Positions 1,406 to 1,723 of a stretch of 9,238 bases of DNA are shown here, piece by piece. Made by a program: the position numbers and the translations under genes. The DNA is from Pseudomonadota bacterium (GTDB taxonomy: Bacteria > Pseudomonadota > Alphaproteobacteria > Rhizobiales > Xanthobacteraceae): positions 1 to 9,238 of the forward strand of contig JAJYAH010000217.1 of NCBI GenBank assembly GCA_021779635.1. The letters run 5' to 3'. The notes under the pieces are model-generated. The model saw nothing but the letters and a program-made list of their open reading frames with translations, ran no database searches and was not told the DNA's origin. Position 1 is the first letter of the stretch. Every line of letters begins with the position of its first letter.

Positions 1406-1453
1406 CGCGAGGGCTCGCCACGCCCGTCGAAAAAAGCCGCGCCAGCCCTCGCG
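1406..1453. repeat. 10-bp inverted repeat overlapping the small-peptide terminator
   Basis: CGCGAGGGCT (1406-1415) is the exact reverse complement of AGCCCTCGCG (1444-1453), 28 bases apart. The right arm lies inside the terminator of the minus-strand peptide gene, so this longer-range pairing would compete with the terminator stem. It may alternatively end the converging DapA-family transcript, although no T run follows on the + strand. Confidence 0.5.
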
Positions 1454-1455
1454 GC
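1430..1455 (-). terminator. Intrinsic terminator of the double-glycine peptide gene
   Basis: Read on the minus strand, GCCGCG (1455-1450) and CGCGGC (1441-1436) form a 6-bp GC stem around an 8-base loop, followed by six T residues (1435-1430). It begins nine bases after the stop of the 46-residue gene, which supports that frame being a real, separately terminated transcription unit. Confidence 0.8.
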
Positions 1456-1464
1456 GTTTCGGTA

Positions 1465-1605
1465 CTAAATGCGGAAATTCGGGTCCCGAATAATTCCGGG
1501 CGGAAGGGGTTGCGGATTGAGCCCGCCCGCGACCTTCTCCAGATCTTTCTCACTGAGCTGGTCACGCGTTTTCTTCTGTTCGGTCGGCCTTTTCTGGTCG
1601 GACAT
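1465..1605 (-). CDS. Small double-glycine leader peptide, possible exported bacteriocin-like or signalling precursor
   Basis: The product has 46 residues. ATG at 1605 is preceded by GAGGAG (1619-1614) at 8-base spacing, and an intrinsic terminator follows the TAG stop. The frame stays open upstream to 1740, but only this start has the ribosome-binding site. Residues 17-28, LSEKDLEKVAGG, fit the double-glycine leader consensus at every key place: Leu at -12, Ser at -11, an acid at -8, Leu at -7, Val at -4 and Gly-Gly at -2/-1. Such leaders are known to be cut after Gly-Gly by C39-peptidase ABC exporters. The leader half is charged (residues 1-24). The predicted mature part is LNPQPLPPGIIRDPNFRI: 18 residues, five prolines, no cysteine, so no lanthionine or disulfide is expected. 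No exporter, modification enzyme or immunity gene lies in the window. Export and function are inferred; the reading frame and leader match are seen directly. Confidence 0.75.
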   Translation of the reverse strand: MSDQKRPTEQKKTRDQLSEKDLEKVAGGLNPQPLPPGIIRDPNFRI

Positions 1606-1723
1606 TTGGAAATCTCCTCGGATTGACGTTTCGCTGACAAACGGGCCATCCGCTGCCTGCGTCGAGCGGCACCATTGCCGTTCGAATGATTTGTCGTACG
1701 AGCGCCGCCGGGGGTTTTTGGGA

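Follow-up and report, generated by a model that had tools for sequence, protein, structure and literature searches.

An orphan double-glycine peptide gene and the recurrent octapeptide LNPQPLPP in small, secreted-looking bacterial proteins

Introduction

The double-glycine (GG) leader consensus used for comparison in this work has hydrophobic residues at positions −12, −7 and −4 and glycines at −2 and −1. In Synechococcus, the small GG proteins EbfG1–4 depend on the C39 protein PteB for efficient secretion and serve biofilm formation, and a peptide of EbfG1 that was recovered is rich in proline (PMC4997328, available in part). By analogy, EbfG1–4 are a precedent for a non-antibacterial role of an exported GG peptide. 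The precursors of the NHLP type combine a conserved leader with a hypervariable core and may be encoded far from their partner genes (PMC2887384, excerpt). A proline-rich reference is apidaecin, GNNRPVYIPQPRPPHPRL, in which P11, R12, R17 and L18 were almost never changed in active variants, according to the accessible part of PMC11347161. Insect apidaecin-like peptides are produced as repeat polyproteins (PMC11549390, excerpt). Here we describe a GG peptide gene on a 9,238-nt contig of a Xanthobacteraceae bacterium (JAJYAH010000217.1; this whole stretch is referred to as the window), in which the leader is directly followed by the octapeptide LNPQPLPP.

Results and discussion

The peptide gene and its surroundings

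The peptide gene spans positions 1465–1605 on the minus strand (46 codons, with the stop included in the span). Translation and the relatives P0002–P0005 showed that the frame, coordinates, strand and 46-residue length given in the original prediction were all correct. The full precursor consists of a 28-residue leader, MSDQKRPTEQKKTRDQLSEKDLEKVAGG (1522–1605, minus strand), followed by the predicted mature part, LNPQPLPPGIIRDPNFRI (1465–1521 including the stop, minus strand). The C-terminal end of the leader, LSEKDLEKVAGG, contains L-12, S-11, D-8, L-7, V-4, G-2 and G-1, so that the predicted fit to a C39-type leader holds at the key positions L-12, L-7, V-4, G-2 and G-1; the assignment is also in agreement with the statistics of the pattern loci described below. 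Predicted cleavage after Gly-Gly would give an 18-mer with five prolines and no cysteine, as had been stated, and a calculated monoisotopic mass of 2056.158. Its first eight residues, LNPQPLPP (1498–1521, minus strand), form the unit that pattern loci, repeat counts and codon spellings mark as conserved. A single match to the corresponding pattern is present in the window, and 200 shuffles gave none.

A strong Shine–Dalgarno sequence had been claimed and was found as AGGAG at 1614–1618 (minus strand), 8 nt upstream of the ATG at 1605. Nine bases past the stop, a stem (1455–1436) with six G–C pairs begins, followed by T6 (whole feature 1430–1455, minus strand). Stem, position and T-run of the proposed intrinsic terminator were thus confirmed, but statistical support was not obtained: the whole window contains 9 terminator-like sites versus 7.5 expected from shuffles, and the fold z-score of the site itself is only −0.38. 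We call the site terminator-like because of its position and T-run. No promoter-like site was detected upstream of the peptide gene on its own strand, the sole one in the window being located at 175–203 on the plus strand. An in-frame GTG start would lead to an alternative 91-residue product (P0011), whereas the relative P0004 has 46 residues and a start position identical to that of the 46-residue frame.

According to Pfam, ten ORFs of the window encode metabolic, regulatory and transport proteins (DHDPS-like, glyoxalase, ArsR, AHSA1, DUF1801, APH-like, MFS, Lrp/AsnC, lumazine-binding-like and P-type ATPase). Genes for export, immunity or modification as known from GG-peptide systems are not among the ten, in line with the original prediction, and Rfam yielded no match in the window at gathering scores. 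The P-type ATPase fragment reaches no more than 86% identity in a sample of 50 Bradyrhizobium-genus genomes, so that the host probably belongs in or near this genus. The peptide itself matched no Pfam family at E ≤ 1, and none of its five NCBIfam matches reached the curated cut-off. One of these, the CTB family bacteriocin model NF038167, scored 12.7 bits versus a cut-off of 32 and covers residues 16–30, i.e., the leader end. An AlphaFold model showed one short leader helix and an unstructured core at low confidence (pLDDT 65), and the confidence of a second structure model was similarly low (pLDDT 62). A full-text literature search, whose coverage excludes most subscription journals, returned no match for the strings NPQPLPP and LNPQP; the sole match for related strings was an unrelated work on WW/PPxY protein polymers.

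Close relatives

Apart from the protein of the window itself, a protein search revealed five relatives. P0002–P0005 share 77–93% identity; their leader and GGLNPQPLPPG are preserved, as is most of the tail (e.g., GIIREPNFRT), while P0006 shares only the leader end and GGLNPQPLPP with the window peptide. For P0002 and P0003 the start was called upstream, and the extra residues EISKM are compatible with GAG-ATT-TCC-AAA-ATG. These protein letters suggest that the ribosome-binding region is conserved in both as well.

Direct orthologues were not found in 265 genomes of the genus Bradyrhizobium or in a 391-genome sample of the family. Leader-plus-core matches (E ≤ 0.01) occurred in 7 of the 265 Bradyrhizobium-genus genomes, each covering just 22–29 of the 46 residues, and in 2 of the 391 genomes of the family sample, one of them shared with the former set. 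One Bradyrhizobium genome (G004) encodes an intact LNPQPLPP peptide (L010/L063) together with two broken-looking copies: L067/L005 has a stop inside the leader, and the reading of L068 diverges from the family after LNPQPL. A truncated-looking end, LNPQPLPRE, was seen in L064. Another GG peptide of the genus, L061 (G062:C4:3812415), carries a different repeated word directly after its leader, GPVDGLR in two copies.

The broken-looking relatives L067/L005, L068 and L064 raise the question of whether the window frame, though genuine, is a decayed or silent gene, left as an orphan relic with no exporter. The lack of an exporter nearby and of a promoter-like site upstream would fit such a relic, but the frame is intact and equipped with a Shine–Dalgarno sequence and a terminator-like site, four relatives are 77–93% identical, and the 90%-identity cluster of the window protein comprises 2 sequences from 7 contigs. 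We therefore consider decay very unlikely.

GGLNPQPLPP loci across bacteria

We searched a GTDB species collection (described as covering 84,980 species, with contigs ≥ 3 kb) with a codon pattern for GGLNPQPLPP only, leaving the leader unconstrained. The search yielded 29 loci in 23 genomes from about seven phyla; taxa were taken from record titles, and some phylum names are our interpretation of these titles. Carriers include Alphaproteobacteria (Bradyrhizobium, Methylobacterium, Rhodoplanes, Acidisphaera, Rhodopila and others), Acidobacteriota, Myxococcota (Hyalangium), Chloroflexota (Dictyobacter), Eremiobacterota, two cyanobacterial MAGs and one Opitutaceae MAG. One Methylobacterium genome contains four copies of the peptide, and the dispersed peptide family that had been proposed thus became apparent. 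The GG-LNPQPLPP junction is kept at these 29 loci as well as in P0002–P0005.

At 25 of the 29 loci, positions −12, −7 and −4 were occupied as expected; when this DNA was translated in all six frames, the background was 54 of 2856 GG sites (1.9%; one-sided Fisher p = 3e-37 for the difference). The four exceptions were L005 with its interrupted frame, the cyanobacterial L014 and L020 with a slightly different leader, and L015, which is leaderless. In the last case, the Opitutaceae MAG, LNPQPLPP lies within or at the end of two small lysine-rich frames, one on each strand, neither of which has a GG leader. At the DNA level, 28 different spellings of LNPQPLPP were counted among 32 occurrences. The occurrence of 29 loci, the leader fit that had not been selected for and the diversity of spellings argue that the family did not arise by chance.

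The preference for synonymous sites that the original prediction entails was also observed, albeit among relatives and not close orthologues of the window gene: eight of nine pairs of related peptides showed dN/dS values of 0.29–0.62, and the ninth pair (L002/L091) was identical. These pairs were chosen among motif carriers, share members and include some paralogues, and their dN is lowered because all carry the fixed core (except for the cut end of L064).

A reversed-pattern control gave no matches in 297 Acidobacteriota and 111 Methylobacterium-genus genomes, compared with 17 matches in 12 genomes and 12 matches in 8 genomes, respectively, for the true pattern. All 12 Methylobacterium-genus matches lie in frames with GG adjoining the octapeptide or two residues upstream of it, one of which (L089) is without an ordinary start. 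Among the 17 Acidobacteriota matches are 2 GG peptides, and a single signal-like repeat gene accounts for 4; the other 11 occur in frames that are larger or doubtful and may be due to chance. The tail of a 515-residue open frame (L071:1-1548), which we presume to resemble a membrane pyrophosphatase, carries LNPQPEPP and LNPQPLPP. A 232-residue frame ending in LNPQPLPPGRQ (L076:838-1536) belongs to a Bryobacterales genome that also encodes two GG peptides. No match to the exact pattern was obtained in viral contigs. Searches with P0007 returned one weak match (46% identity) in plasmid records and a single match (E 6.5) among solved structures.

The presence of the motif in many dissimilar frames and phyla might be explained by a DNA element, mobile or repeated, in which LNPQPLPP is encoded in frame by coincidence, with no peptide function implied. 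Such an element is, however, at odds with the 28 spellings in 32 occurrences, with the five copies in L077, which are all spelled differently, and with the leader fit at 25 of 29 loci. We rejected this explanation as exceedingly improbable on the grounds of the differing codon spellings.

C39 exporters

A C39 peptidase domain was detected in 20 of the 23 carrier genomes; the three without it are MAG records of 3.2–3.8 Mb. This presence alone is modest evidence, because 8 of 14 control genomes were positive, too. Linkage is more telling: at 7 of the 29 loci a strong C39 match is no more than 6 kb from the peptide, versus 0.08 loci expected from C39 counts and genome sizes, the 6-kb limit having been chosen after the distances were known. 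An eighth linked locus, L102 from a Bradyrhizobium-genus genome, came from a separate search. Within the 2.6–8 kb examined, no C39-type exporter was found at the other 22 of the 29 loci, among them L012 with a weak ABC match.

A C39 ABC exporter is thus linked to relatives of the window peptide at L099, L100, L101, L102, L105, L106, L107 and L108. In Rhodoplanes (L106) the genes for HlyD, C39-ABC, a second ABC protein, a cyclic-nucleotide-binding protein and the peptide follow one another on one strand, and the Methylobacterium loci L099, L100 and L101 exhibit the order HlyD, C39-ABC, second ABC and peptide, likewise on one strand. At L102 the peptide, HlyD, C39-ABC and second ABC genes share a strand, with an opposite-strand ORF separating peptide and HlyD; this peptide ends in LNPQPLPRE, an inexact octapeptide. 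L105 comprises peptide, HlyD, C39-ABC and a second-ABC match, and L108 comprises peptide, HlyD and C39-ABC, while at L107 (Acidisphaera) the peptide lies on the strand opposite to the exporter. At L100 (L021/L089), the leader of the linked copy is not preceded by an ordinary start codon, and this copy may be broken. Directly downstream of the linked exporter, L108 encodes a second GG peptide (L108:9729-9911), whose core contains CTTC.

NHLP-type parts scored above the NCBIfam cut-off at 5 of the 8 linked loci. TIGR03796 was passed at L099, L101, L102 and L105, TIGR03794 at L105, and TIGR03797 at L106 and L023 (the same locus as L101). The truncated exporter pieces of L011 and L021 were just under the cut-off, and L107 and L108 were below that of TIGR03796. 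The unlinked exporter L103 of the Bradyrhizobium carrier G004 passes TIGR03794, TIGR03796 and TIGR03797. Exporters of four Bradyrhizobium-genus carriers are 70–75% identical to the Rhodoplanes exporter and reside on contigs other than those of the peptides. Strong C39 matches were present in 108 of the 265 Bradyrhizobium-genus genomes, including 4 of 5 exact-motif carriers (one-sided Fisher p 0.09) and 6 of 7 leader-like carriers (p 0.02). Since co-occurrence with the exact motif is not significant, C39 presence alone is weak evidence in this genus. A glycine-rich GG peptide (LLNDKELSIVSGG and similar) was observed beside C39 exporters of the genus (L103:11633-11809 and L104:1516-1680). Because it adjoins the same exporters, these may serve several dissimilar substrates.

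The proposal that the window peptide is a substrate of an exporter encoded elsewhere is supported, by comparison with relatives, through the C39 and HlyD genes found near some of them, and the search for exporters in carrier genomes pointed in the same direction.

For the neighbourhoods of the relatives, 120 of 141 called ORFs were tallied, with ORFs called by a simple GC3 rule. Among the families listed (25 of 109), only exporter domains matched at least three of the 120 ORFs, with the exception of SMC_N, which was below the cut-off in the one member displayed. No modification family among those listed matched more than two of the ORFs, and radical SAM proteins accounted for two. A recurrent immunity gene was not found among the 120 ORFs by Pfam, a search that an immunity protein without a Pfam model would escape.

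The NHLP-type exporters and the two radical SAM ORFs would be in agreement with a precursor of a modified peptide (RiPP), e.g., of the NHLP/Nif11 kind, whose modified product is moved by the exporter. Weak NCBIfam matches among 80 family members point the same way: TIGR04495 (XyeA) in 8 (best E 2.2e-4), TIGR03798 in 7, TIGR03793 in 5 and NF033456 in 5 (best E 8.3e-4). The window peptide, however, reached only 12.9 bits with TIGR03798 (cut-off 32.3) and did not match TIGR03793 at E ≤ 1; cysteine occurs in just 7 of 113 mature parts; and the cores of NHLP precursors are described as hypervariable in the excerpt cited above (PMC2887384), which the LNPQPLPP core is not. A RiPP is rendered less likely by the fact that modification enzymes do not recur, and we regard it as quite improbable.

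Octapeptide copies and repeat proteins

Of 7982 candidates scored with a profile built from 25 peptides, 2497 proteins reached E ≤ 1. Counting as a copy any stretch with at least 5 of 8 matching residues, 58 of the best 120 of these 2497 proteins carry two to five copies of the motif, and the later copies are exact LNPQPLPP in 61 of 73 cases. The commonest variant among the best 120 was LNPQPEPP; variants are under-sampled because the proteins were fetched by octapeptide words. Seven proteins lacking the GG leader served to build a second profile; of 7990 candidates scored, 1238 reached E ≤ 0.001, and 114 of the best 120 of these 1238 were new. The 114 proteins contain 3–10 copies each, and 412 of the 520 copies are exact. 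Start-to-start spacing is mostly 13–25 residues, and the spacers are dissimilar. A signal-like N-terminus was assigned to 87 of the 114 by a crude hydrophobicity rule, while the GG leader is missing in 113, P0210 alone fitting the GG-leader rule. Some of the named repeat proteins derive from Candidatus Angelobacter and Bryobacteraceae records. The gene at L077 encodes five copies, one of them LNPQPEPP. Since the octapeptide is retained while leader, spacers and probably export route vary, we take it to be the unit; many GG peptides, too, carry it more than once. A phenylalanine is found among the final six residues in 42 of the 62 single-copy GG peptides of P0001–P0120, and an F/R pair in 22 of the 62.

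Annotation of the family is sparse. NF038167 matched 31 of the 80 members at E ≤ 0.1 (best 3.3e-5). For the 79 members other than the window peptide, Pfam and NCBIfam E-values were all weak save single odd matches, and P0111 has the precomputed Pfam annotation PF28158. In the best 120 of 2497, a source gives the name 'bacteriocin-like protein' to four proteins and 'Bacteriocin' to one, so that single members had already been noticed by annotation; the remaining source names in the listed proteins are nearly all 'hypothetical protein'.

These five names, together with weak bacteriocin-leader matches (TIGR03949 in 20 and TIGR01847 in 13 of the 80 members), would suit a bacteriocin-like antibacterial, perhaps of the apidaecin sort, that would enter other bacteria and there bind to a conserved target, for instance the ribosome exit tunnel. 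A conserved intracellular target would account for a core that does not change over phyla. The word PQPxPP also occurs in apidaecin, GNNRPVYIPQPRPPHPRL (excerpt of PMC11347161), the repeat polyproteins of the partly available PMC11549390 parallel the multi-copy proteins described here, and the first octapeptide is followed by R in 54 of the best 120 of 2497 proteins. The octapeptide lacks, however, the critical R12, R17 and L18 and the PRL end of apidaecin, as far as these are defined in the accessible text of PMC11347161. Moreover, the mature net charge is 0 to +3 in 98 of 113 peptides, several multi-copy proteins have acidic spacers or lack a signal-like start, and an immunity gene is not recurrent. 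The 113 mature parts, for which the cysteine count was also made, include at least one non-GG member (P0105) and exclude P0011 and six others. Taken together, an antibacterial role appears unlikely.

Proposed role of the peptide

Gene, leader consensus, conservation of the octapeptide at the peptide level and exporter linkage in some relatives are observed. We consider it likely that the window peptide is real and exported after a C39-type GG cut, with LNPQPLPP as its working part and acting as an extended proline-rich ligand. The single-gene unit would provide the precursor of a small exported peptide. Judging from the relatives, a C39 ABC exporter, most likely of the NHLP type with an HlyD partner, would be encoded elsewhere in the genome, cut after Gly-Gly and release LNPQPLPPGIIRDPNFRI. 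The octapeptide would then act outside the cell, probably as an extended ligand of a conserved surface or matrix partner; a bacteriocin with a variable core is less favoured.

Going beyond the original prediction, the sequence comparisons identify the octapeptide as the conserved unit, which is also present outside GG-leader peptides. That it turns up almost unchanged in small, secreted-looking proteins from many bacteria unrelated to one another is suggestive of a short molecular tag or signal in widespread use. A core that is fixed across phyla and behind dissimilar N-termini points to a single conserved partner. In its broadest form, LNPQPLPP would be one fixed extracellular ligand, delivered by Gly-Gly/C39 and Sec-like routes, singly or in multivalent arrays, to a partner common to several phyla. 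We advance this cross-phylum reading tentatively, as a possibility of which we are not persuaded; if true, it would imply a common inter-bacterial tag or signal.

Comparison with known systems

Among described peptide families, the CTB family bacteriocins (NF038167) are approached by many weak matches in the family, yet the window peptide is below the cut-off. From class II bacteriocins and microcins the locus is set apart by the immunity gene beside the precursor, which Pfam revealed neither in the window nor recurrently near relatives. Apidaecin and LNPQPLPP have PQPxPP in common, and part of the LNPQPLPP family likewise shows multi-copy precursors; in contrast to apidaecin as described in the excerpts used here, the octapeptide has L at the R12 position, no critical arginines and no PRL end, and it is of bacterial origin and preceded by a GG leader. 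With the NHLP/Nif11 systems (TIGR03794, TIGR03796 and TIGR03797 exporters), several relatives of the window peptide share the same exporter parts beside them. The window leader is, however, below the NHLP/Nif11 cut-offs, a modification enzyme does not recur, and the fixed LNPQPLPP core is the reverse of the conserved leader and variable core outlined in the available part of PMC2887384. With other C39-exported GG peptides (class II microcins, ComC and EbfG) the peptide shares the leader consensus, the Gly-Gly, its size and, in some relatives, the exporter linkage. It differs from them in having no immunity gene and in its LNPQPLPP core, which is near-invariant over about seven phyla and is also present in proteins without a GG leader.
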